DNA from: Bacteroidota bacterium
Lineage (GTDB): Bacteria > Bacteroidota > Bacteroidia > Bacteroidales > F082
NCBI GenBank assembly: GCA_009773165.1
Contig: WOUZ01000007.1
Location: 124,001-188,000 of the forward strand
DNA: 64,000 nt
Direction: 5' to 3'
Position 1 is the stretch's first letter. Every line of letters starts with the position of its first letter. The translations under genes were made by a program, and so were the position numbers. Below, one piece after another: positions 15,748-29,683 of the stretch. The notes beneath the pieces were generated by a model that was not told the DNA's origin, made no database searches, and saw only the letters and a program-made list of their open reading frames with translations.

Positions 15748-16095
15748 CTATTTTGTGACGACCTCTATTGATCTTATTTTTAGTTCCTTTCCTTTTAACA
15801 AATTGGTATGCAAACTATTACAAAACGGACAAATTTTAAATACATCGATCGGTTCAAATTCATTACAACATGACTCACAAACAGCTTTAGCGGCAATTTG
15901 GTGGTAAATAAGTTCAGCCTCCGAAGCAATAGTCCCTCTAACAGCCTCTAGCATAGCCATCTCCAGTGCATCCATTTCAACGCCTGAGAGCTCACCTATT
16001 TCAAGTTGAACCTGTAAAACAGTATCTGCGCCGGCATTTTTTGCTTCTTCTTCAATAATCTCTGTGATTTGTATGGCAATTGAAAGTTCGTGCAT
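15748..16095 (-). CDS. hypA: HypA, nickel chaperone for hydrogenase maturation
   Basis: A 115-residue cytoplasmic protein that binds Ni through its N-terminal MHE (MHELSIA) and Zn through two Cys pairs (CESC and CPFC, near residues 72-94), and works with HypB. The start at 16095 is chosen because the MHEL N-terminus must be free to bind Ni; the frame could extend 20 residues upstream, but those are unlike HypA, and a -7 box lies inside that extension. It is a single gene. No HypC, D, E or F and no [NiFe]-hydrogenase gene is in the window; hypB lies 11.8 kb away. Confidence 0.93.
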   Translation of the reverse strand: MHELSIAIQITEIIEEEAKNAGADTVLQVQLEIGELSGVEMDALEMAMLEAVRGTIASEAELIYHQIAAKAVCESCCNEFEPIDVFKICPFCNSLHTNLLKGKELKIRSIEVVTK

Positions 16096-16113
16096 GATAT
16101 TCCTATGAAGTGG

Positions 16114-16121
16114 CAAAATTA
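16114..16121 (-). promoter_or_regulatory. -7 box for hypA
   Basis: CAAAATTA on the plus strand reads TAATTTTG on the minus strand, 18 nt before the ATG at 16095. It supports the shorter HypA. Confidence 0.5.
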
Positions 16122-16324
16122 CACAAAACGAGGTCATTCTATGAAAACAATGCATGAGTTTATAAATTCTTTAAGCTCCCTTTACAAAGAAGGGATCTAA
16201 AATGGATTTTGTTACCTGAATGCCTGAAAATAACCTACTTTTCAGATCTGGCGATCTAATTTAAATAATAACTGATAAGAGATTAATCTTGAATAATTTA
16301 CATGGAAACTTCAAAACCAGGATT

Positions 16325-18954: not shown

Positions 18955-19268
18955 ATTTTACCACCGAAACAGGCCTTCATTCTCTCGCTTTTTTCTTTAA
19001 TTAACTTTTTATGTCCTTTGTCTTATAAACATAAAGTATCCAAACCAGGTCTCTATTAACGAATAATATCTATTAATAATGAGAATAATCCAGGATCAAT
19101 TAAAGATTATAAGATTCAATAGAGGTTAAATTAATATTAATTTAATATGTTGTTTATCAATATTATAATTAAATTATTATAAAATTATCTAAAACTAAAG
19201 CCTTATTTAGACTGAATTGAAATTAGATATATTAAAGATATTTTTCTTTATTTAATTGTTTTAATGAT
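18955..19268. other. AT-rich intergenic region upstream of the rex-hyd operon
   Basis: About 310 bases with no gene and very low GC from 19040 on. It contains a perfect 20-bp palindrome at 19126-19145 (TTAAATTAAT and its mirror complement). I see no classical Rex operator (TTGTGAA-type inverted repeat). The palindrome may be an operator or simply follow from AT richness. Confidence 0.5.
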
Positions 19269-19294: not shown

Positions 19295-19957
19295 ATGGAA
19301 ACAGAACTTTTGACATCAGCAAAAAAAATCCTGCCCGTGCCTGAACCCAGCGTTAGGCGGATGCCGCAATACCTTCATTTGGTAAAATCACTGCGCGAAC
19401 AGGGTGAATTATATGTTTCTGCCCCCACAATTGCCCGGCTTTTGCATGTCGATCCTACTCAAGTTGTGAAAGATATGTCATATACAGGTGTAAGTGGAAA
19501 GACACGTATTGGTTTCTCTACTGAAGAACTACAGCATGCACTCGAAGAATTTCTGGGATTTAACCGCAGGCATGAGGCTTTTCTTGTTGGTGCTGGTTAT
19601 TTGGGAAGTGCTTTGATTCAATATCAGGGATTTCGCGAGGCAGGGATGAAAATTGTCGCTGCATTTGATACAGACAAAAAGAAAATTGGAACAGAAATAC
19701 AAGGTGTTTCGGTCTTCGATCTCGAAAAATTTCGCGATCTGGCAGCACGGCTGCATATTACAATCGGAATCATTACAACTCCTTCGGGAGCCGCACAGTC
19801 CATAGCCGATCTGATGGTGGTTTGGGGAATAAAAGCTATCTGGAATTTCGCACCTGCCACACTTAAAGTACCCGAGCATATCATCGTACAAGACACACAT
19901 ATTTATGCCAATCTTGCTGTCATTATCAACAAGTTGGGAAAACAAAAAAATGGATAA
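19295..19957 (+). CDS. rex: redox-sensing repressor Rex (first copy)
   Basis: A 220-residue NADH/NAD+-sensing repressor. The N-terminal winged helix (about 20-90: PSVRRMPQYLHLV, PTQVVKDMSYTGVSGKTRIGFS) binds DNA. A Rossmann domain with GAGYLGSALI (about 97-106) and a conserved DTDKKKIG acidic site binds NADH. Rex releases its operators when NADH is high. It lies 30 nt before hydC and is most likely co-transcribed, so it probably controls the hydrogenase operon and itself. It differs clearly from the second Rex at 29 kb in recognition helix and length. Confidence 0.93.
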   Translation: METELLTSAKKILPVPEPSVRRMPQYLHLVKSLREQGELYVSAPTIARLLHVDPTQVVKDMSYTGVSGKTRIGFSTEELQHALEEFLGFNRRHEAFLVGAGYLGSALIQYQGFREAGMKIVAAFDTDKKKIGTEIQGVSVFDLEKFRDLAARLHITIGIITTPSGAAQSIADLMVVWGIKAIWNFAPATLKVPEHIIVQDTHIYANLAVIINKLGKQKNG

Positions 19958-19987
19958 ACAGGGTTTGGTACCTAAAAATTTTATAAT

Positions 19988-20497
19988 GTGAAAACAGAAC
20001 CTAATAAAAATCTACGCCAGTTTCAACAAGTGATTGAAATCATCGAGCGTAACAACCACGACAAGGCACGTTTAATTCCTATCCTGCAGCAAATTCAGGA
20101 TGCCTATCGTTTTTTACCTCCTCAGGTGCTCACTTATGTAGCCACCGCTCTCGATATGCCAGTTGCTGAAGTATACGGTGTCGCGACTTTTTACGCGCAC
20201 TTTTCACTCGAAGCAAAAGGGAAATATGTCGTAAAAGTTTGCGATGGCACTGCCTGCCATGTGAAAGGATCATCAAAACTACTTGATGCCTTGTATAAAA
20301 AACTCAAACTAAACGCCGAAAAGCACACTACCGACGACATGATGTTCACAATAGAAGCCGTCAGCTGTCTGGGAGCCTGTGGTTTAGCTCCTGTAATGGT
20401 TGTAAATGAAAAAATTTATGGTGAAGTGAACAGTAAGCGCTGCGATGATATCATCGATACAATCATTCAACAGGAAACAGCGGAACAAGTAAATTAA
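19988..20497 (+). CDS. hydC: bifurcating [FeFe]-hydrogenase gamma subunit, NuoE-like
   Basis: A 169-residue subunit with a thioredoxin-fold [2Fe-2S] domain. Its helical N-terminus (about 10-75, LIPILQQIQDAYRFLPPQVL) is followed by the cluster ligands CDGTAC (Cys 85 and 90) and CLGAC about 36 residues later, as in NuoE/HndA/HydC. It starts with GTG. It passes electrons between the NADH-binding HydB and the rest of the complex. It is the first structural gene of a three-subunit hydrogenase, 6 nt before hydB. Confidence 0.93.
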   Translation: MKTEPNKNLRQFQQVIEIIERNNHDKARLIPILQQIQDAYRFLPPQVLTYVATALDMPVAEVYGVATFYAHFSLEAKGKYVVKVCDGTACHVKGSSKLLDALYKKLKLNAEKHTTDDMMFTIEAVSCLGACGLAPVMVVNEKIYGEVNSKRCDDIIDTIIQQETAEQVN

Positions 20498-20503
20498 GCA
20501 ATC

Positions 20504-22411
20504 ATGGAAACTATCATAACAACAGATCTCAAACAGATCAAACAAACTTACAATAAGGCAGCATCACGCATCCAAAAACGAATTGTCGTTTGTGCAGGAA
20601 CAGGCTGTATCGCAAATGGCGCTCTCGTCGTTCATAATGCGCTCGAAAAAGCTATCCATGATGCAGGATTGGAACTCTTTGTTGAACTCGAACTCGATCA
20701 ACATGAATGCAGTTCCATTCAAATAACCGGAAGTGGATGTCAGGGCTTCTGCGCTCAAGGGCCTCTTGTAAACATACTTCCTGACGAAACAATGTATGTG
20801 AAAGTCAAGCCGGAAGATGCTTCTCTTATCGTGGAACAATCTATTTTGACAGACAATGTAATCGATCATTTGATGTATGTGAACCCTGTAAGTGGTGAGC
20901 ACAACAAAGGTCAGCTCGATATACCGTTTTATAAACGTCAAAACCGCTTGGTTTTGGGTGAATGTGGTCATGTTGACCCTGAAAACATTCGTGAATATAT
21001 TGCACATGATGGCTATTTTGCTGCATTTAAAGCATTTACAGAATTATCCGGTGAGCAGATTTGTACTACCATGATCGAATCTGGTTTGCGCGGACGTGGC
21101 GGTGGCGGATTTCCTACAGGCCGCAAATGGCATCTGACACGTATAGAAAAAAGCGAAAAGAAATATGTCATCTGTAATGGTGACGAAGGCGATCCGGGAG
21201 CATTTATGGATCGCAGCCTAATGGAAGGCAATCCCCATCGTGTTCTTGAAGGTATGATGATTGCAGCCCGAGCTATCGGTGCCGATGAAGCTTATGTATA
21301 CGTACGTCTTGAGTATCCATTAGCAGTGAAGCGAATGCGAAAAGCAATTGAAGATGCCATGGAGACAGGTATTTTAGGCGAAAACATATTCAACAGCGGT
21401 CATAACATGTATATTCATGTTATGGAAGGTGCAGGTGCGTTTGTTTGCGGCGAGGAGACTGCTTTGATGGCTTCCATCGAAGGAAAACGCGGGATGCCTA
21501 TGCCCAAACCGCCATTTCCTGCACAGAAGGGATTATTCGGAAAGCCAACCGTGATCAACAATGTGGAGACTCTAGCCGCTGTTCCACTTATTATCCGCAA
21601 CGGGGCTGAATGGTTTAACCAATACGGTACTGTCGGATCGAAAGGCACAAAAACTTTTGCCCTTACCGGGCATGTGGCCAACACAGGACTCATTGAAGTT
21701 CCTTTTGGAACGACTTTGCGTGAAATTGTTTACAATATTGGTGGTGGCGTTACAAATGACGATGGTAAAGTGACTGGTGAGGGTTTCAAAGCGGTACAAA
21801 TCGGAGGTCCATCCGGCGGATGTCTGACTGAAGAAGATCTCGATTTGCCTCTTGATTATGACAATCTTATCGCAAAAGGTGCCATGGTTGGTTCAGGTGG
21901 ACTGGTCGTAATGAACAAGCAGTCGTGCATGGTGCAGATAGCACGGTTTTTTATGAATTTCACCCAAAGTGAAAGTTGCGGAAAATGTGTCCCATGCCGC
22001 GAAGGAACAAAACAGATGTTGGCCTTACTTGACGATATAATCGAAGGACATGCCACGATGGAAACCTTTGCTATGCTCGAGGAGATTGGATTGGTGGTTA
22101 AAAAGGCATCACTCTGCGGACTTGGAAAAACGGCCCCCAGCCCTGTACTTTCGACTATTGTGAAGTTTAGAGAAGAATATCTTCAGCATATCAACGAAAA
22201 AAGATGCGCAACAAATAACTGCAAAGCATTACGAAGCATAAGTATTGATGCTGAAAAATGCATCGGTTGCACCGCCTGCGCCCGTAAATGTCCGGTTGGC
22301 GCGATCAGCGGAGAGAAAAAACAATTGCATATAATTGATCCTGAAATATGTACAAAATGCGGTGTTTGCTTTGATGCGTGTAAGTTTGATGCAGTTCTTG
22401 GTTTTAATTAG
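20504..22411 (+). CDS. hydB: bifurcating [FeFe]-hydrogenase beta subunit, NuoF-like (NADH/FMN)
   Basis: A 635-residue flavoprotein that exchanges electrons with NAD(H). The domains in order are as follows. An N-terminal thioredoxin-like [2Fe-2S] domain (about 25-120, CAGTGC and GCQGFC). The NuoF FMN/NADH fold with RGRGGGGFPTGRKW and NGDEGDPGAFMDRSLMEG. An SLBB-like segment. The [4Fe-4S] motif SCGKCVPC at about residue 490. A C-terminal two-[4Fe-4S] ferredoxin domain (CIGCTACARKCP, CTKCGVCFDAC; about 580-630). This architecture is that of trimeric electron-bifurcating hydrogenases, which couple NADH and reduced ferredoxin to H2. Confidence 0.96.
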   Translation: METIITTDLKQIKQTYNKAASRIQKRIVVCAGTGCIANGALVVHNALEKAIHDAGLELFVELELDQHECSSIQITGSGCQGFCAQGPLVNILPDETMYVKVKPEDASLIVEQSILTDNVIDHLMYVNPVSGEHNKGQLDIPFYKRQNRLVLGECGHVDPENIREYIAHDGYFAAFKAFTELSGEQICTTMIESGLRGRGGGGFPTGRKWHLTRIEKSEKKYVICNGDEGDPGAFMDRSLMEGNPHRVLEGMMIAARAIGADEAYVYVRLEYPLAVKRMRKAIEDAMETGILGENIFNSGHNMYIHVMEGAGAFVCGEETALMASIEGKRGMPMPKPPFPAQKGLFGKPTVINNVETLAAVPLIIRNGAEWFNQYGTVGSKGTKTFALTGHVANTGLIEVPFGTTLREIVYNIGGGVTNDDGKVTGEGFKAVQIGGPSGGCLTEEDLDLPLDYDNLIAKGAMVGSGGLVVMNKQSCMVQIARFFMNFTQSESCGKCVPCREGTKQMLALLDDIIEGHATMETFAMLEEIGLVVKKASLCGLGKTAPSPVLSTIVKFREEYLQHINEKRCATNNCKALRSISIDAEKCIGCTACARKCPVGAISGEKKQLHIIDPEICTKCGVCFDACKFDAVLGFN

Positions 22412-22476
22412 ATCACGAAACATCATTTTCAATTAAAGTAAAGACTCTAAAAAAACTACAGAATAAAGAATAAAAT

Positions 22477-22503
22477 GAAGGGCAATGAAACCTTTCACCC
22501 TTC
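22477..22503 (+). other. hairpin in the hydB-hydA gap
   Basis: GAAGGG / CCCTTC can close an imperfect hairpin with an inner TGAA / TTCA pairing. It ends 14 nt before the preferred hydA ATG at 22518 and swallows an upstream in-frame ATG at 22485. No T run follows, so it is not a normal terminator; it could affect translation or RNA processing. Confidence 0.45.
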
Positions 22504-22517
22504 TCAAAAAAAATATC

Positions 22518-24572
22518 ATGGAAACAAAAGGAATGGTAACTATTGATGGGATGTCGATCCCAATCGAAGGAGAAAAAAACCTCCTTGAACTCATACGAAA
22601 AGCTGATATTGAACTCCCAACATTTTGCTATCACTCACACCTTAGCACCTACGGAGCATGCCGTTTATGCATCTGCGACATTGAAGGAATGGGCATTCAG
22701 GCTACTTGCTCCATCGAACCAAAAGATGGTCTTGTTGTGAACACAAACACTGCTGAAGTGCGCCAGATCAGAAAAGTGAATCTGGAATTGCTATTGGCAA
22801 ACCACGACATTAGTTGTCCAACATGCGCAAGATCAAATAATTGCAAATTACAAGATCTGACTCGCAGACTCGGTGTAACAAAGGTACGCTTTAAAAAAAC
22901 TGATAAAATTGCACCCATCGATGATCATTCCTGGTCAATTATTCACGATCCCAATAAATGTATTTTATGTGGTGACTGTGTAAGGGCCTGTAAAGAAATG
23001 CAAGCTGTCGGAGCTATTGACTTTGTCAATCGTGGGGCTAAAACCATAGTTGGTCCTGCTTTTAATAAAAGTTTGAATGATGTTGAATGTGTTTATTGTG
23101 GTCAATGTGTTTCGGTTTGTCCGGTAGGTGCTCTCGTGCCAAAACCTGAAACAGAACAAGTTTGGAAAGCTATTCACAACCCCGAGAAATATGTTGTGGC
23201 CCAACTTGCCCCGGCAGTAAGAGTTGCTCTAGGTGAAGGTTTCGGAATGGAAGCCGGAACAATTAGCACCGGTCAAATTGTTGCAGCATTAAAGCGAATG
23301 GGCTTCGATCAGGTTTATGACACCTCTTTTGCGGCTGACCTCACGGTTCTTGAAGAAGCTACCGAGTTCATTCAGCGTAAGTTAAACAATGAAAACCTAC
23401 CTCAATTTACCTCATGTTGCCCAAGCTGGGTGAAATTTGCAGAACAGTACTATCCTGAATTGCTCCCTAACTTATCCTCCTGCAAATCACCTCAGCAGAT
23501 GTTTGGCAGCGTTGCACGTGAAATCCTGCCAAAGCTGCTTAAAGTAAAACCTGAGAACCTTGTCATTGTTTCAATCATGCCTTGTACAGCAAAAAAATTT
23601 GAAGCTAAAAGGGAAGAGTTTATTCACGATGGACTACCAGAAGTTGATCATGTGTTATCTACTGAAGGCCTCGGCCGCATGATTCATGAAACAGGACTTC
23701 AGTTCACCAAATTGAAACCTGAGTCATTTGATATGCCTTTAGGATTTAAAACGGGTGCAGGCGTCATTTTTGGTAATACGGGCGGTGTCAGTGAAGCAGT
23801 TCTTCGGTTTGCCTATGAAAAAATTAGAGGCGAAACGCTTATCGACACCGATTTGAAAATGGCCCGCGGACTCGATGGTATTCGTACTATTGAAATGCAG
23901 CTTGGGTCAATTCATTTGCGCCTTGGCATCGCACATACGCTTTCCAATGCCCGAAAACTTTGTGATAGCATCATCGCCGGCGAATCATCCTACGACCTTA
24001 TTGAAGTCATGGCCTGTCCCGGAGGTTGCATCGCAGGAGGCGGACAGCCTGTGAGCTTTGACCCTGACTTCAGAAAAAAACGCATGCAGGGATTATATAA
24101 TGCCGACAAACAGCTGGAACTTCATAAATCGCAAGACAATCCTTACGTTAAAGAATTGTATCAGATGACGTTAGGTGAAATTGGAGGCCACAAAGCACAC
24201 GAACTGTTGCATACACATTATCACGGAAGAAAACGTATTACAGACCAAGTAATTACGATTCGCAATACCGAACATCCAAAAATTGAAGTTTACGTTTGCG
24301 TTGGAACTAACTGTTACATGCGTGGCGCTCAGGACTTGCTTAAGAAAATGAGTCGTTACGTTGCTGACAACAAGCTCTCCGACATCGTTGGTTTTGAAGG
24401 CCAGGAAGATATGGTTGATGTGAAAGCTACTTTCTGCTTCGAGCGTTGCGACAGAGGACCAGTTTTACGTGTAAATGAGAAGATTTTGGAGCACGCAACC
24501 TTTGAAAAAGCTAAAGCATTATTAGATAGCGAGATACAAAGAATAGGATTAAAAGTATCGAATAAATATTGA
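22518..24572 (+). CDS. hydA: [FeFe]-hydrogenase catalytic subunit, group A (bifurcating type)
   Basis: A 684-residue H2-evolving or H2-consuming subunit. The N-terminus has a [2Fe-2S] domain (CYHSHLSTYGACRLC), a His-ligated [4Fe-4S] site (HDISCPTCARSNNC) and a two-[4Fe-4S] ferredoxin domain (CILCGDCVRAC, CVYCGQCVSVC). The H-cluster motifs are all canonical: L1 TSCCPSW (about 298-304), L2 MPCTAKKFE (from 354) and L3 EVMACPGGCIAGGGQP (from 496). The proton-transfer Cys is present. An extra C-terminal thioredoxin-like [2Fe-2S] domain (about 590-684) matches HydA of trimeric bifurcating enzymes. An ATG 33 nt upstream would add 11 residues but sits inside a hairpin. The maturases HydE, HydF and HydG are not in the window. 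Confidence 0.97.
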   Translation: METKGMVTIDGMSIPIEGEKNLLELIRKADIELPTFCYHSHLSTYGACRLCICDIEGMGIQATCSIEPKDGLVVNTNTAEVRQIRKVNLELLLANHDISCPTCARSNNCKLQDLTRRLGVTKVRFKKTDKIAPIDDHSWSIIHDPNKCILCGDCVRACKEMQAVGAIDFVNRGAKTIVGPAFNKSLNDVECVYCGQCVSVCPVGALVPKPETEQVWKAIHNPEKYVVAQLAPAVRVALGEGFGMEAGTISTGQIVAALKRMGFDQVYDTSFAADLTVLEEATEFIQRKLNNENLPQFTSCCPSWVKFAEQYYPELLPNLSSCKSPQQMFGSVAREILPKLLKVKPENLVIVSIMPCTAKKFEAKREEFIHDGLPEVDHVLSTEGLGRMIHETGLQFTKLKPESFDMPLGFKTGAGVIFGNTGGVSEAVLRFAYEKIRGETLIDTDLKMARGLDGIRTIEMQLGSIHLRLGIAHTLSNARKLCDSIIAGESSYDLIEVMACPGGCIAGGGQPVSFDPDFRKKRMQGLYNADKQLELHKSQDNPYVKELYQMTLGEIGGHKAHELLHTHYHGRKRITDQVITIRNTEHPKIEVYVCVGTNCYMRGAQDLLKKMSRYVADNKLSDIVGFEGQEDMVDVKATFCFERCDRGPVLRVNEKILEHATFEKAKALLDSEIQRIGLKVSNKY

Positions 24573-24600
24573 ATTAATTTTGGTTAGAATTAGTTGAATA

Positions 24601-24664
24601 ATGGAAAACTCACCCGTTTTGGTTTCATACAATATGTATGTTTTCATTCACGGGTGAGTTCCAT
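24601..24664 (+). other. long hairpin between hydA and hydS
   Basis: An 11-bp perfect stem AACTCACCCGT / ACGGGTGAGTT (24607-24617 and 24650-24660) is extended by ATGG / CCAT at the base and has an inner CATAC / GTATG stem. Only a weak AATTTT follows. It may be a partial terminator that lowers hydS expression, or a stabilising or processing element of the hydA mRNA. Confidence 0.7.
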
Positions 24665-24707
24665 AATTTTCGGATTAAAGCCCTCTTTATCAAACAAATA
24701 AATAATC

Positions 24708-26429
24708 ATGACACATCAAACCCGCCCGAAAGATAAACTCCCGGTTGTTTACACCTCCCGGGCTAAATGCCGCGATTGTTACCGATGTGTGCGTGTTTGC
24801 CCTGTTCAGGCTATCCGTATGAAAGATGGTCAGGCTGAGGTCATTACAGAACTGTGCATTGCATGCGGAACCTGCATCACGGCTTGCCCGCAGCAAGCAA
24901 AAGCATATCGCACCGATTATAACAAGGTGCTGCAGATGATGGAGGAAAATCACCAAATAGCGATCAGTATTGCTCCCTCTTTTGTAATTTACTACGATGA
25001 GTGGCAACAGAAACGACTACCTTCGGCTTTACGTATGGCAGGTTTTTCACATATCTCAGAAACAGCTATCGGAGCCTATCAAAGTGCCAAAGCAACCGCT
25101 GAATATGTAAGCGAAAATCCTCATCGCGCAAATGTTTGCACCGCTTGTCCTGCAACAGTTAATTATGTGATGCATGAAAAACCAGAGCTAGCCGGCTTTC
25201 TCGTTGAGGTTGTCTCTCCAATGATAGCACATGCTAAAATGCTAAAAAAAACAGCACCTAAACGAAAGGTAGTGTTCGCCGGACCTTGTGTTGCTAAAAA
25301 AGATGAAGCTCAATGGACTGTAAATCAAGATCTTGTTGATGCAGTTCTTACTTTTGATGAATTAGATGAGTTACTCAGCATCAGACAAATAAATCTTGAC
25401 CAATGTGAGGAAAGTTCATTCGACGACCTTGTTCCGGGAGATGCAAGTCTTTTCCCTTTAGAGGGCGGTTTATTGAGAACTGCCGGACTAAAGACCGATA
25501 TGCTTGATGAACATGTGATTGCTGTCAGCGGTTTCCGGGAAGTGAAAGATGCTCTGGAAGCTCTGAATGAAAAGACGGGCAACCTGATTATTGAACCTAT
25601 GTTTTGCAAAAATGGTTGTATAAACGGTCCGTTTGCAGGTCACAAACATACGGGAATTCAAAACAGAGCAGCCATTCTGAATTACGCTGCAAAACAACGA
25701 AAACCCGATCCCGCAAACATCGGTTCTCTGAAATCTACTTCAACACATTTTGATACGGTTCAATCTGGTAAAAAAGTTGACTTTAGTGAAGATCAGATAC
25801 GTGAGGTTCTTAAAAAAACTGGCAAACTTACTCCATCTGACGAGCTCAATTGCACTGCTTGCGGCTATCCCGATTGCCGCACCAAAGCCATTGCTGTACT
25901 GAAAGGTTTGGCTGAACCTGAAATGTGTATGCCTTATATGAGGCGTATTGCCGAACAGAAGTTTGATACGATGATCGATTATGATCCTAATGGCATTGTT
26001 TTATTAGATCATGAATTACGTATAATCCATATGAATCCGGCATTTAAAAAGATGTTTTCATGTTCAGACGCTTTGTTGGCAAAGAAAATTAGTTATCTTA
26101 TTGATCCTGATCCATTTGAACAGTTGGTTACTAAAAAAGTTGATGTTTACAGAAGCAAAACAAATTATAGCAATTACAATTTGCTTTGCCACCTGGTTGC
26201 ATATGTTCTTCCTGAAAACCAACATTATGTCGGTATCTTTATGGACATTACAGATACAAGTTCAAGTAAGGAAAAACTTCGTGAATTGCAATCAGAAACT
26301 GTCATAAAAGCGCAGGAACTTATTGAACATCAAATAAGTATGGCACAGGAACTTGCGAAGTTTCTTGGAGAGCATACCGCAGCCGGTGAGATATTGATGA
26401 AAAAACTCATCGATTCAATAAAAAAATAA
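24708..26429 (+). CDS. hydS: putative sensory [FeFe]-hydrogenase with PAS domain (HydS type)
   Basis: A 573-residue protein with an [FeFe]-hydrogenase core but sensor-type features. The N-terminal two-[4Fe-4S] domain (CRDCYRCVRVC, CIACGTC; about 20-65) is followed by an H-cluster domain with altered motifs: L1 CTACPAT (cluster Cys 147, with Ala 146 where catalytic enzymes have the proton-transfer Cys), L2 GPCVAKKDE (Cys 194) and L3 FCKNGCINGP (Cys 300 and 304). Next come an extra [4Fe-4S] motif CTACGYPDC (from residue 382), a PAS domain (about 425-520) and a short helical tail. This order is that of group C/HydS proteins thought to sense H2. It lies 4 nt before a phosphatase gene, its likely output partner. 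Sensing is inferred from family knowledge. Confidence 0.9.
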   Translation: MTHQTRPKDKLPVVYTSRAKCRDCYRCVRVCPVQAIRMKDGQAEVITELCIACGTCITACPQQAKAYRTDYNKVLQMMEENHQIAISIAPSFVIYYDEWQQKRLPSALRMAGFSHISETAIGAYQSAKATAEYVSENPHRANVCTACPATVNYVMHEKPELAGFLVEVVSPMIAHAKMLKKTAPKRKVVFAGPCVAKKDEAQWTVNQDLVDAVLTFDELDELLSIRQINLDQCEESSFDDLVPGDASLFPLEGGLLRTAGLKTDMLDEHVIAVSGFREVKDALEALNEKTGNLIIEPMFCKNGCINGPFAGHKHTGIQNRAAILNYAAKQRKPDPANIGSLKSTSTHFDTVQSGKKVDFSEDQIREVLKKTGKLTPSDELNCTACGYPDCRTKAIAVLKGLAEPEMCMPYMRRIAEQKFDTMIDYDPNGIVLLDHELRIIHMNPAFKKMFSCSDALLAKKISYLIDPDPFEQLVTKKVDVYRSKTNYSNYNLLCHLVAYVLPENQHYVGIFMDITDTSSSKEKLRELQSETVIKAQELIEHQISMAQELAKFLGEHTAAGEILMKKLIDSIKK

Positions 26430-26433
26430 TTCC

Positions 26434-27579
26434 ATGTATATCCACACCGATGTTTTCGCAGTTCAATCCTCAAAAAAACATGGTCAGCCATGTGGTGATG
26501 CATGGGGGGTAGTGCGCGATTCAGAAGCTACAACACTTGTGCTGGCCGATGGGTTGGGTTCTGGTATTAAAGCCAATATTGCGGCATCGATGTGTGTTTC
26601 AAGGCTTCTGGAATTAATCAGGATGGGCATGACAATTAGGGAAGCATTTGATGCTGTATCTGCAACAATGGATTTAGTTTGGGGTAACGGAAGCCCTTTT
26701 GCTGTTTTTTCCATTGCACGGATTTTAAACAACGGTCAAACAACCATCCTTAGCTATGAAATGCCTCCTCCTTTGCAACTCAACTATTCCTATGCTCAGG
26801 TATTGCGCGACAGAGTGTATACACGCCAGAAAGCGATTATTCATGAGTCCGACTGCCAGGTTTCCAAAGGCGAGGCTTTAGTTTTGATTTCAGACGGGAT
26901 TTCACAGGCCGGCATAGGATTGCACTTCCCGGAGGGTTGGGGTGCTGAGGGTGTACGACAATTTCTTCAGACTCACCTTCCTATCGAAAGAATTGATGGT
27001 CAATTCATTGCGAAAAGTGTTCATGATAAAGGAAGGTCTTACTGGCCTGAAAATAAAGGGGATGATTGTTCTGTTCTTGTAGCTGTAAACAGGCGTGGTA
27101 TTGTTGTAAACCTGTTGAGCGGTCCTCCCAACAGAATGGCAGATGACGAAAACTGGGTCAAAAGTTTTCAACAAAGTAATGGCATTCATTTGATCTGCGG
27201 AGGGTCAACAGCCCGGATTACTTCCCGAATTTTAAATTTACATTTATCAGTAAATGAACCTGATAACACCATTACACCTCCCTCCTATTCCCTTGAAGGA
27301 TTTGAACTTGTTACCGAAGGGATGATTACCCTCAATCAAGCCTACCATTTGCTTGACGAAGACATTGAACTCATACCCGACTCATCACCTGCAACTGAAC
27401 TCGCTGATTATTTGAAGAATGCGGACAGGATAAACATATGGTTAGGTTTAGCCGAAAACCTGAACGAAGCTGCCCTTGAGATCAAACAGCAGGGTTTGCG
27501 TAAGCGTCAGCGCATAATACAAAAAATCGCTGACCGTCTGCGCAATCAGGGTAAGTTGGTGATTATCGAAAGATTATAA
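26434..27579 (+). CDS. PP2C/SpoIIE-type phosphatase linked to the sensory hydrogenase
   Basis: A 381-residue cytoplasmic protein. The first about 220 residues are a PPM/SpoIIE-like Ser/Thr phosphatase fold with the metal-binding Asp motifs LVLADGLGSG, LVLISDGIS and KGDDCSVLVAV. The last about 155 residues form a separate domain with an HLICGGSTARI motif and a basic helical end, which I cannot assign to a named family. It starts 4 nt after hydS. Family-level knowledge says PP2C-like phosphatases co-occur with HydS-type hydrogenases, so the pair may turn an H2 signal into dephosphorylation of an unknown protein. No anti-sigma factor, anti-anti-sigma factor or kinase gene is adjacent. Confidence 0.85.
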   Translation: MYIHTDVFAVQSSKKHGQPCGDAWGVVRDSEATTLVLADGLGSGIKANIAASMCVSRLLELIRMGMTIREAFDAVSATMDLVWGNGSPFAVFSIARILNNGQTTILSYEMPPPLQLNYSYAQVLRDRVYTRQKAIIHESDCQVSKGEALVLISDGISQAGIGLHFPEGWGAEGVRQFLQTHLPIERIDGQFIAKSVHDKGRSYWPENKGDDCSVLVAVNRRGIVVNLLSGPPNRMADDENWVKSFQQSNGIHLICGGSTARITSRILNLHLSVNEPDNTITPPSYSLEGFELVTEGMITLNQAYHLLDEDIELIPDSSPATELADYLKNADRINIWLGLAENLNEAALEIKQQGLRKRQRIIQKIADRLRNQGKLVIIERL

Positions 27580-27892: not shown

Positions 27893-28768
27893 ATGTGCGG
27901 AACTTGCGGATGCGGTGAAGATGATCATATCACTTATAAAAAACCTTCAGAAGGAGAAAAAAATCATACACATGAACATCAACATGGTCCCTATGCACAT
28001 GCGCATTTCCATCATCATGATGATCACGATCATGACCATCCACACGCGCACGACCACGACCATTTGAATGACCATGATCATTCACACGAGCACATTCATC
28101 CCCATGTGCACACAAATTTAGAAAGTCAAACAATTCATATTCAACGGAATATACTTTCGAAAAATGATTTGCAAGCAGAGCAAAACCGCGGGTATTTCGA
28201 CGCTTTACAAATTGTGGCATTCAATTTAGTCAGTTCACCCGGATCGGGGAAAACCTCCATTTTGGAGCGCACTATAAAAGAAAAAGGCACAGCTTTTAAT
28301 TGTTATGTCATTGAAGGCGATCAGCAAACGCTCAATGACGCTAAAAGGATCGAACAAGCTGGCGCTCCTGTCATTCAAATTAATACCGGAAATGGCTGCC
28401 ACCTCGATGCCCTTATGGTAAACAAAGCTATCAAACAACTAGGCGTTTTACAAAAAAGCACGCTTTTCATTGAGAATGTTGGAAACCTTGTATGCCCTGC
28501 ACTTTTTGATCTGGGCGAAACAAAACGCGTTGTAATTATAAGTGTTACAGAAGGCGAAGATAAGCCAGCGAAATATCCCAATATGTTTCAAACTGCTCAA
28601 TTGTGTCTTATCAACAAAACTGACCTGCTTCCATATCTTGATTTCGACATGAATAGTTTTCTTGACATTGCTAAAAAAGTGAATCCTCAACTTACCTTCA
28701 TCGAAATGAGTGCAAAAACTGGTCAGGGTTTCGAAGATTGGTACAAATGGATTGCTGATCAGCATTGA
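27893..28768 (+). CDS. hypB: HypB, hydrogenase nickel-incorporation GTPase with His-rich domain
   Basis: A 291-residue GTPase that delivers Ni during [NiFe]-hydrogenase maturation together with HypA. The N-terminal CGTCGCG is the high-affinity Ni site. Residues about 24-73 are a very His/Asp-rich metal-storage stretch. The GTPase domain has a P-loop SSPGSGKTS (about 112-120), the Ni/Zn site motif GNGCHLDA, ENVGNLVCP and NKTDLLPY. It is separated by 313 nt from the phosphatase gene and followed by rex2. No [NiFe] enzyme is in the window, and [FeFe]-hydrogenase does not need HypAB, so its client is elsewhere or different. Confidence 0.95.
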   Translation: MCGTCGCGEDDHITYKKPSEGEKNHTHEHQHGPYAHAHFHHHDDHDHDHPHAHDHDHLNDHDHSHEHIHPHVHTNLESQTIHIQRNILSKNDLQAEQNRGYFDALQIVAFNLVSSPGSGKTSILERTIKEKGTAFNCYVIEGDQQTLNDAKRIEQAGAPVIQINTGNGCHLDALMVNKAIKQLGVLQKSTLFIENVGNLVCPALFDLGETKRVVIISVTEGEDKPAKYPNMFQTAQLCLINKTDLLPYLDFDMNSFLDIAKKVNPQLTFIEMSAKTGQGFEDWYKWIADQH

Positions 28769-28980: not shown

Positions 28981-29012
28981 TTGCATTTTACATTTCGTAT
29001 TGACTACTTTTG
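28981..29012 (+). promoter_or_regulatory. promoter of the second rex gene
   Basis: TTG at 28981-28983, a 21-nt spacer and TACTTTTG at 29005-29012 fit the Bacteroidetes -33/-7 pattern. The -7 box lies inside the longest possible frame (from a TTG at 29000), so the ATG at 29048 is the likely start. Confidence 0.6.
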
Positions 29013-29047
29013 CTGAGCTGTTAATAAAACCAAAAAGCAAAGGGCTA

Positions 29048-29683
29048 ATGAAACATCTTCCACACAAAACGATTGAGCGGTTAAGTCAATACCGACGCGC
29101 ATTGTTGATCTGTCTCGATAAAGGGCAAACACACATTTATTCTCATGAAATTGCCCGAATTCAACATATTACTGCTGTTCAGGTGAGACGTGATTTGATG
29201 CTGATTGGTTATACAGGAACCTTAAGAAAAGGATATAACGTTAAAGAACTGATCGACCTCATAGGCGAAATAATTGATTCCCAAGAAGGTATCAATGTAG
29301 CCATCATCGGAATGGGGAATTTAGGCCGTGCACTCATCAATTATTTTTCAGGTAAACGCTCGCATCTGAAGATAGTGGCAAGCTTCGATATCAATCCGGA
29401 TAAAATAGGTAATTCGATGTCAGGAGTTCCATGCTATTCTTCTGAAGAGATGGATAAAGTTATAAAGGAAAAAGATATCAGGATTGGCATTATGACTGTT
29501 CCTGCTGAGTTTGCCAGCCAAACAACCGATGCATTAGTGAAAGCAGGCATCAAAGGAATTCTTAATTATACCCCAAAGCCGGTTACTGTTCCCAAAGAAG
29601 TTTATCTGGAAGAATACGACATGATTACTTCTCTCGAAAAGGTTGCCTTTTACGTCAAGCTGAACGAAAAAGAAGAAGCATAA
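29048..29683 (+). CDS. rex: redox-sensing repressor Rex (second copy)
   Basis: A 211-residue Rex-family protein. The winged helix covers about 5-80 (TIERLSQYRRALL, AVQVRRDLMLIGYTGTLRKGYNV). The Rossmann motif GMGNLGRALI (about 91-100) and a following FDINPDKIG acidic site are present, so NADH binding is expected. It is more basic in the recognition region (VRRDL) than the first copy (VVKDM), which suggests a different operator or affinity. It is a single gene between hypB and a bidirectional terminator. Either copy could control fermentation genes elsewhere. Confidence 0.93.
   Translation: MKHLPHKTIERLSQYRRALLICLDKGQTHIYSHEIARIQHITAVQVRRDLMLIGYTGTLRKGYNVKELIDLIGEIIDSQEGINVAIIGMGNLGRALINYFSGKRSHLKIVASFDINPDKIGNSMSGVPCYSSEEMDKVIKEKDIRIGIMTVPAEFASQTTDALVKAGIKGILNYTPKPVTVPKEVYLEEYDMITSLEKVAFYVKLNEKEEA

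Follow-up and report, generated by a model that had tools for sequence, protein, structure and literature searches.

The genes rex, hydC, hydB, hydA, hydS and a phosphatase gene probably constitute one operon, in which Rex represses when NADH is low and HydS signals H2 to the phosphatase. The window, by which we mean the whole 64,000-nucleotide stretch of DNA that was analysed, carries the six genes on its plus strand from 19295 to 27579 (Table 1). An earlier sequence-only reading had placed the string correctly to the base. Its 4-nt gap between hydS and the phosphatase gene is also exact, since the hydS TAA occupies 26427-26429 and the phosphatase ATG starts at 26434. That reading had proposed a single loop responding to both NADH/NAD+ and H2. 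Because the order is conserved and a palindrome with Rex layout precedes the operon, one unit reading both signals is reasonable; that part of the proposal stands, while the loop from H2 through the phosphatase to a target is putative.

Table 1. Genes, protein domains and predicted operator in the window.
Feature	Position	Strand	Description
Palindrome TAAAGAT-ATTT-TTCTTTA	19233-19250		18 bp; predicted Rex operator, Val-type
rex	19295-19957	+	NADH/NAD+-sensing repressor; recognition helix QVVKD, Val58 codon 19466-19468
hydC	19988-20497	+	NuoE-like [2Fe-2S] subunit
hydB	20504-22411	+	NuoF-like FMN/NADH subunit
hydA	22485-24572	+	[FeFe]-hydrogenase catalytic subunit with its H-cluster cysteines
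hydS	24708-26429	+	PAS hydrogenase with two 4Fe-4S sites
HydS H-domain	24957-25631	+	Fe_hyd_lg_C
HydS C-terminal FeS cluster domain	25845-25934	+	PF04060, 38 bits (cut-off 23)
HydS PAS domain	25986-26255	+	PF13188, 24.5 bits (cut-off 21.8); PF13426, 26 bits, just under 27
HydS tail	26256-26426	+	Residues 517-573; taken as helical
Phosphatase	26434-27579	+	SpoIIE/PP2C-type serine/threonine phosphatase
Phosphatase C-terminal domain	27097-27576	+	160 residues, conserved

Gene order and catalytic subunits

The sequence-only reading had staked its proposal on the order extending beyond this strain, and it does: all six genes recur, in unchanged order and on a single strand, in 37 of the 98 distinct loci inspected, many of which are interrupted by contig ends, and intervening genes may lie within the orders counted. 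The 37 contigs correspond to 40 rows with the repeats L029=L059, L031=L060 and L041=L162, and the 98 loci are 16 + 80 - 3 repeats + 5. Eight phyla are represented by the full order, as read from the record titles. A survey of 395 Bacteroidetes genomes, which the earlier reading had suggested, found that all 14 full-length HydS-PAS genes adjoin a phosphatase gene.

HydS or a HydS fragment adjoins the phosphatase in 70 of 80 loci. The other ten are L056, L064 and L099, which are cut by contig ends, L109, which is broken, and L040, L057, L063, L072, L098 and L105, where the phosphatase stands apart from HydS. L040 may be a second copy, as L119 of the same genome runs rex-hydC-hydB-hydA-hydS to the contig end. 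Under a stricter distance rule a HydS-type partner is close by in 88 of 103 phosphatase rows, a count that takes in repeats and PAS-only partners and where some misses are over-extended reading frames. Clustering of the flanking ORFs gave no recurrent serine/threonine kinase among the loci, and by eye the clusters consisted largely of shadow ORFs from hyd genes, plus a few unrelated genes. Query-like ORFs (histidine kinase, response regulators) were removed before clustering, so two-component partners could not appear. No relatives of HydS were found in a scan of viral contigs, and an Rfam scan of the window gave no match.

The catalytic enzyme has the subunit composition of bifurcating HydABC (group A3), with HydA, a NuoF-like HydB and a NuoE-like HydC, and its electron bifurcation is putative. 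In profile searches HydC matched 2Fe-2S_thioredx, and HydB is nuoF-like with a 2x4Fe-4S tail; in the PDB, HydB best matches subunit B of 7t2r together with those of 8a6t, 7q4v and 7p5h, which are bifurcating HydABC structures. HydA scored 757.6 bits against NF040763 (group A6), slightly under the cut-off of 765. The sequence-only reading had missed the palindrome before rex, a second rex at 29000-29683 of the window and a second hydABC elsewhere in the genome, whose HydS is linked to a histidine kinase (L005).

Rex and its candidate operator

The window Rex scores 278 bits against NF003994 (cut-off 130) and matches PF06971 and PF02629, the winged-helix and NAD(H)-binding domains. Its Val58 replaces a highly conserved Arg of the recognition helix, a residue that most other Rex proteins compared retain and that falls outside the cut-off of the curated model. 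The palindrome before rex has the 18-bp layout of the published Rex consensus TTGTGAA-n4-TTCACAA; it reads TCGATAA-n4-TTATCGA in most lineages and TAAAGA-n6-TCTTTA in the family of the window. We regard TAAAGATATTTTTCTTTA as the candidate site of the window Rex and TCGATAAAAAATTATCGA as the candidate site of a relative with Arg-type Rex.

CGATA-n6-TATCG was the best inverted repeat before rex, present at 23 of 38 genes with one arm mismatch allowed (0.5 expected), compared with 11-17 for the best of any inverted repeat in each of 20 shuffled upstream sets. Exact copies of TCGATA-n6-TATCGA number nine in G188, G353 and G156 (six at the rex promoter, three inside reading frames) and none in G184 and G389, and the reversed pattern gave 0 in all five genomes. 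The exact TAAAGA-n6-TCTTTA occurs four times in the genome of the window (reversed control, 1), the three other copies being inside reading frames. A scan of 42 upstream regions with the usual consensus TTGT(T/G)AA-n4-TT(A/C)ACAA gave the window a best score of 11/14, the same as shuffles. L041, L054, L098 and L085 score above the window, and L041, which is Val-type, has a near-canonical Rex site.

The loci were also compared according to the residue in the recognition helix. With Val-type Rex the TAAAGA site (at most one mismatch) was found in 12 of 13 distinct loci, L133 lacking it, and the TCGATA site in none; with Arg/Lys-type Rex the TCGATA site was found in 23 of 33 (29 with two mismatches) and the TAAAGA site in none, where L143 is counted within the 33 though no hyd gene adjoins, L033, L050, L055, L069, L070, L088 and L139 were left out unread, L051, L059 and L060 were omitted because they duplicate L027, L029 and L031, L041=L135=L162 and L119=L136 each count once, and L025 and L026 are of one genus. 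The TCGATA form was absent in this comparison from the Arg-type loci L027, L054, L083 and L117; L083 does show it in its raw upstream sequence. The second Rex of the window and the Ala-type Rex of L140-L142 have neither site and are in neither class.

In the T. maritima Rex-DNA structure, Arg48 bonds Gua5, which is the third half-site base on our reading of the printed operator. This Arg48 aligns with Val58 of the window, and as third base TCGATAA has G where TAAAGA has A. Lys49 reads base 5, a G, in the crystal; TCGATAA has a T there even though this Lys is retained. Rex in the family of the window appears to have switched to another DNA sequence. As the operator switch with Arg-to-Val is confined to one clade, it counts as one evolutionary event. 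The Ala-type Rex of L153-L156, from other families of the order, have no adjoining hyd genes and share no palindrome, and so give no second independent switch.

HydS and the phosphatase

HydS shows the features of HydDB group C3, namely altered H-cluster surroundings, a PAS and a C-terminal FeS domain, and a phosphatase partner. All 16 cluster-ligand cysteines checked are each kept in 87 to 89 of 89 HydS rows, some of which repeat one contig; for example, C147, C194, C300 and C304 are present in 88, 88, 88 and 89 rows. A Met near the H-cluster has become Gly192 in 83 of the 89 rows, and at the third altered place, that of CpI M497, the window HydS keeps Met298 where 79 rows have Leu. The low-activity TmHydS likewise keeps the H-cluster ligands and alters neighbouring residues at which catalytic enzymes show good conservation. 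HydS is thus far a putative H2 sensor, and the C-terminal cluster of the related sensor TamHydS, which does not respond to H2, counts against the H2-sensing model. A regular expression for the tail motif (40 of 89 rows) was too strict, so per-residue conservation was used. L553, G554, A558 and E561 are conserved at 98, 98, 99 and 93%; the tail mean of 0.53 is not above that of the PAS domain (0.55) or the H-domain (0.56).

In the phosphatase, D22, D39, D154, D210 and D211 are invariant among 52 aligned sequences, and we take these to be the metal-binding aspartates. Its structure model (pLDDT 92) has a PP2C fold, matching SpoIIE, RsbX and an RsbU domain. The C-terminal domain had no Pfam match at E 0.01, and a fold search of the PDB gave 0 matches with E <= 0.001; GAPDH had the lowest E, yet at 0.011 with probability 0.51, and methylglyoxal synthase (E 0.012-0.091, probability 0.80-0.96, TM 0.42-0.44) is too weak a match to name the domain. 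As for a counterpart to the phosphatase, the only Pkinase match in the same genome lies amid vWA-like and PP2C-like genes (by eye) with no tie to it. HATPase_c_2 gave 21 matches there, 6 over the cut-off; a single one of the six is a short stand-alone RsbW-like protein (138 aa), which neighbours a STAS protein and a SpoIIE phosphatase of its own, again with no tie to the window phosphatase. In one genus, three genomes that gave no Fe_hyd_lg_C match still encode the phosphatase along with a [2Fe-2S]-like protein and a PAS-helix protein, so that in them the PAS-phosphatase pair appears to function independently of H2 chemistry.

Proposed mechanism, alternatives and precedents

We infer a single transcript in which Rex, the first gene, would repress itself and the rest through the palindrome when NADH is scarce. 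A build-up of NADH would release Rex and allow HydABC to be made, which would spend NADH and ferredoxin jointly and give off H2. HydS, from the same transcript, would take up H2 at a slow H-cluster, and its PAS domain and helical tail would dock in trans on the PP2C switch helices, relaying its state to the phosphatase, much as the PAS-helix of RsbP is thought to act in cis. The phosphatase would then alter the phosphorylation of some protein and tune H2 output to H2 pressure, the target and the sign of the output being among the things we infer.

On another reading, which we think rather unlikely, Rex alone controls hydABC, and HydS and the phosphatase are a separate pair acting elsewhere, on fermentation enzymes or a stress regulon, with the shared operon reflecting only that both are important at one redox state. 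In Thermoanaerobacterium, deleting hfsB increases ethanol and the expression of adhE and so reaches past the hfs operon itself; the six loci with the phosphatase away from HydS point the same way, and the partner-switching module of the genome (STAS and RsbW-like proteins) could be the substrate set. Against it is the hydABC-hydS-phosphatase order kept over eight phyla. It is also improbable that HydS acts as an electron valve or a slow catalytic hydrogenase rather than a sensor and that redox acting via PAS, not H2, governs the phosphatase. The three genomes with the trio and no Fe_hyd_lg_C match favour this. Against it, the H-cluster ligands are kept and their neighbours altered as in TmHydS, although the window HydS retains a Met at the place of CpI M497.

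The palindromes, for their part, might bind another repressor or a nucleoid protein on TATCGATA arrays, the TAAAGA repeat being a family-specific promoter feature. TCGATA sites do often lie in tandem arrays of TATCGATA that could serve another protein, several promoters having tandem units (in G188, for instance, three sites overlap at a spacing of 14 bp), and the window has no canonical Rex consensus. The Rex layout of the sites, their position directly before rex, and the coincidence of recognition-helix and third-base changes at a residue-base pair known from the crystal structure make this a poor prospect. Returning to the operon reading, a bolder form of it is quite possible, though less likely than not: HydS and the phosphatase would be a split, in-trans RsbP design, one protein carrying the PAS domain and docking helix and the other being the phosphatase with its added C-terminal domain. 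The hydrogenase would be one of several sensor heads, missing from the genomes that have the trio but no [FeFe]-hydrogenase match, and together with the re-specified Rex the pair would form a two-input controller of fermentative H2 in many phyla.

The earlier suggestion that the system could be previously undescribed is not supported, in view of HydDB C3, hfsABCD, the Hydrogenedentota A3+C3 set and the rex-hydABC-like set of Caldithrix abyssi; its remark that HydS near phosphatases is known at the family level agrees with HydDB, where C3 is "phosphatase-linked (putative)". The HydDB text available lists the role of this sensory group as undetermined and links it, like the window HydS, to serine/threonine phosphatases; that text mentions no Rex, operator or phosphatase C-terminal domain, whereas the window system has a Rex, a predicted operator and such a domain. 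In Thermoanaerobacterium hfsABCD, going by the portions available, a PAS hydrogenase (HfsB), a serine-phosphatase homologue (HfsC) and a catalytic hydrogenase (HfsD) share one operon as in the window, and deletion shifts metabolism; HfsD is ferredoxin-linked rather than a bifurcating HydABC, and rex is not described there as an operon member. Expression of rex in T. saccharolyticum is given as opposite to a simple Rex-link expectation, which counts against the proposed mechanism. In C. abyssi Cabys_3675-3679, by the available account, hyd genes of bifurcating type likewise follow rex, and a candidate Rex site lies 38 bp ahead of the rex gene; this site, cTGTGAATCAATTCACAt, is near-canonical, unlike that of the window, and HydS and the phosphatase are not discussed in that account. 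Hydrogenedentota bfuABC-bfuT, in the text available, places a C3 sensor gene beside an A3 bifurcating hydrogenase, and its main text contains 0 instances of "phosphatase" or "Rex". RsbP, RsbU and SpoIIE share the PP2C fold, and their input is described or proposed, in the sources as available, as helix docking on switch helices; in the window the sensor is a separate protein and the phosphatase adds a C-terminal domain.

The HydS and phosphatase class and rex heading hydABC are thus already known from HydDB C3 and Caldithrix, respectively. What is new is the pre-rex palindromes with their family switch, as predicted here, the phosphatase C-terminal domain, and the PAS-helix and phosphatase pair lacking an [FeFe]-hydrogenase match.

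The likeliest places for a prior description would be Ravcheev 2012 and Greening 2016. Outside these two, the titles, abstract openings and text passages covered, which represent part of the matching papers, contain no description of rex-hydCBA-hydS-phosphatase as one conserved operon or of TCGATA/TAAAGA Rex operators. The pairing of C3 with one phosphatase family, the docking tail, the operator and the hydrogenase-free version would open H2 sensing by [FeFe]-hydrogenases to experiment. The change in Rex would offer a clean natural case in which a repressor and its DNA site shift together at a residue-base contact known from a crystal.

Conservation of the gene order

The six genes lie where the sequence-only reading had placed them, all on the + strand, and the names it gave them match our domain searches. 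HydB matches the B subunits of the solved bifurcating hydrogenases 8a6t, 7q4v and 7p5h with E below 1e-206, and its top match is 7t2r. Between 19000 and 29100, no internal terminator or promoter signal rose above the shuffled sequences, which is compatible with one transcript or several.

The gene order, on which the proposed control loop was based, is conserved outside this strain. It was found complete in 40 rows, representing 37 of the 98 distinct contigs inspected. By record titles, these belong to Bacteroidota (including Ignavibacteria), Planctomycetota, Hydrogenedentota, Omnitrophota, Armatimonadota, Myxococcota, Deltaproteobacteria and Bacillota. In a Fervidobacterium (L117), the order is [2Fe-2S]-hydS-phosphatase-hydC-hydB-hydA-rex.

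In a sample of 395 genomes of the phylum, the window's own counted in, the phosphatase is present in 17 (own genome included) and a HydS of any type (E 1e-20 or better) in 35. A full-length window-like HydS (E 1e-142 or better) is encoded in 14 genomes, and the phosphatase comes next in all 14. In the other three phosphatase genomes (L036-L038), HydS is replaced by a 96-99-residue [2Fe-2S]-like protein (a scan of one of them gave 19.4 bits, short of the 24.8 bits that Pfam requires) and a PAS protein of 168 residues, which resembles the end of HydS and keeps its tail motif in all three. No Fe_hyd_lg_C match was found in these genomes, whose completeness is 94-98%. An 84,980-species collection was also scanned with one peptide pattern. 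Relatives are encoded in at least 566 of at least 586 stretches, and HydS or a HydS fragment adjoins the phosphatase in 70 of the best 80 loci kept from these relatives. The phosphatase stands apart from HydS at six loci (L040, L057, L063, L072, L098, L105); each of those six genomes has a HydS match elsewhere, and 8 of the 9 genomes searched were positive.

Coordinates of the features discussed (own genome, the genome of the window)
Feature	Coordinates	Content	Remark
Operon	window 19295-27579	rex-hydC-hydB-hydA-hydS-phosphatase	+ strand
hypA	window 15748-16155	nickel-insertion gene	upstream of operon, opposite strand
hypB	window 27893-28768	nickel-insertion gene, His-rich N-terminal stretch	downstream of operon
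Second rex	window 29000-29683	ordinary recognition helix QVRRD	adjoins carbamate-kinase-like gene on opposite strand (read by eye)
L005, second hydABC cluster	own genome C1:345000-364000	response regulator - hydC - hydB - hydA - HydS fused to histidine kinase - response regulator - receiver/kinase - hydG - hydF - hydE	partly named by eye
L163, partner-switching module	own genome C29:201000-208500	receiver-SpoIIE phosphatase, RsbW-like kinase, STAS protein	
L164	own genome C17:1-5000	single Pkinase match of the genome, clustered with vWA-like and PP2C-like genes	read by eye
L036, L037, L038	L036:9012-10955, L037:9251-11194, L038:6521-8470	[2Fe-2S]-like protein, PAS-helix protein and the same two-domain phosphatase	three genomes, one genus
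L058, L061	L058:2581-10140, L061:1-7273	tandem pair of diverged HydS-phosphatase pairs in one locus	
L098	8324-10116	rex end overlaps phosphatase start, no HydS between	HydS elsewhere in genome
L109	8087-9831	hydC and hydB fragment, then directly phosphatase fragment	without hydA and hydS

Predicted Rex operators and the recognition helix

For each of 38 rex genes, 220 nt of upstream sequence was searched for inverted repeats, with one arm mismatch permitted and 20 shuffled sets as control. CGATA-n6-TATCG precedes 23 of the 38 genes and TCGAT-n8-ATCGA 22 (0.5 expected for each), and AAAGA-n6-TCTTT precedes 10 (1.9 expected); the top repeat of any kind in each shuffled set reached 11 to 17. The window (19233-19250) and its close relatives carry TAAAGA-n6-TCTTTA. 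Both this form and the TCGATA form have the same 18-bp arrangement as the published consensus for Rex, TTGTGAA-n4-TTCACAA, as quoted in an excerpt of PMC5317091, where a rex-hyd arrangement with a candidate Rex site is also described for Caldithrix.

In the Rex alignment, most sequences have QVRKD or close variants, and every locus with the TAAAGA form has QVVKD. One locus, L133, has a QVVKD Rex but lacks the TAAAGA form. With at most one mismatch, TAAAGA occurs at 12 of the 13 loci with Val-type Rex and TCGATA at none, while TCGATA occurs at 23 of the 33 Arg/Lys-type loci (29 at two mismatches) and TAAAGA at none. From the T. maritima Rex-DNA crystal, it is reported that Arg48 bonds Gua5 and Lys49 bonds Gua7 (excerpt of PMC8836258); by our own reading of the operator printed there, these would be half-site bases 3 and 5. 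Arg48 aligns with Val58 of the window Rex and Lys49 with Lys59. At base 3, TTGTGAA and TCGATAA have G where TAAAGA has A, and therefore loss of the arginine coincides with loss of its base. At base 5, TAAAGA has G and TCGATAA has T, although the lysine is retained with the latter. Val-type Rex was found in ten members of the window's family (among 60 relatives); six were inspected, of which five are complete, all with the operon order (L157, L158, L160-L162), and L159 is cut. The change of operator and helix is confined to one clade, which points to one event.

The exact TAAAGA-n6-TCTTTA has four sites in the own genome (reversed control 1): one lies in the operon promoter and three lie inside reading frames. 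Exact TCGATA-n6-TATCGA sites were counted in five genomes (G188, 5; G353, 3; G156, 1; G184 and G389, 0), with none in the reversed control. Of these 9, six map to the rex promoter and three fall within reading frames.

HydS, the phosphatase and the second hydABC set

Across 89 rows, some of them repeats, each of the 16 ligand cysteines of HydS (two N-terminal 4Fe-4S sites, four at the H-cluster, and the C-terminal FeS site) is present in 87 to 89. Changes in sensory hydrogenases are reported at three places of the H-cluster region (excerpt of PMC10055695). In 83 of our 89 rows, Gly takes the place of the Met that precedes the second H-cluster cysteine. Where HydA has the first Cys of its CC pair, HydS has Ala146. 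The third place, known to be altered in the T. maritima HydS, has Leu in 79 of the 89 rows, yet Met is retained in the window HydS. In the tail after PAS, assumed to be helical, conservation is 93 to 99% at A550, L553, G554, A558 and E561; averaged over the whole tail it is 0.53, which does not exceed the PAS mean (0.55).

The phosphatase was aligned in 52 sequences (the window's and 51 of the best 80 loci). Residues 1-221 form the PP2C domain, in which D22, D39, D154, D210 and D211 are invariant, and the top folds for the model (pLDDT 92) include an RsbU-RsbW protein, SpoIIE and RsbX. A second domain spans residues 222-381 and occurs in all 52 sequences, where G230, D238, G250, G256, E295, G296 and G338 are invariant; a Pfam search of it gave no match, and a fold search of it modelled alone (pLDDT 90) returned nothing at E <= 0.001. 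In contrast to SpoIIE, RsbU and RsbP, the window phosphatase has no N-terminal regulatory domain. In those proteins a helix or coiled-coil linker is described as acting via switch helices (excerpts of PMC5468089 and PMC12143880), and we infer that here such a helix may be supplied in trans by the HydS tail.

The HydDB entry names group C3 "phosphatase-linked (putative)" and lists its role as undetermined. The pairing resembles the hfs operon, for which published excerpts describe a PAS hydrogenase paired with a serine-phosphatase homologue, and increased adhE expression and ethanol after hfsB deletion.

The own genome (4.38 Mb, 40 contigs) has four Fe_hyd_lg_C matches, namely the window pair and the L005 pair, and the maturases HydE, HydF and HydG are encoded within the L005 cluster. 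In the kinase-type HydS of L005, HisKA and HATPase domains replace the window-type tail. Thus, one genome has two hydABC sets, one with a kinase-type and one with a phosphatase-type sensor. There are two SpoIIE matches in this genome, the other being in L163. A counter-acting kinase might be sought among the kinase matches of L163 and L164, but neither could be linked to the window phosphatase. In the proposed mechanism, transcription would be set by Rex through NADH/NAD+, rex being part of the operon, and H2 would be reported at the protein level by HydS and the phosphatase.
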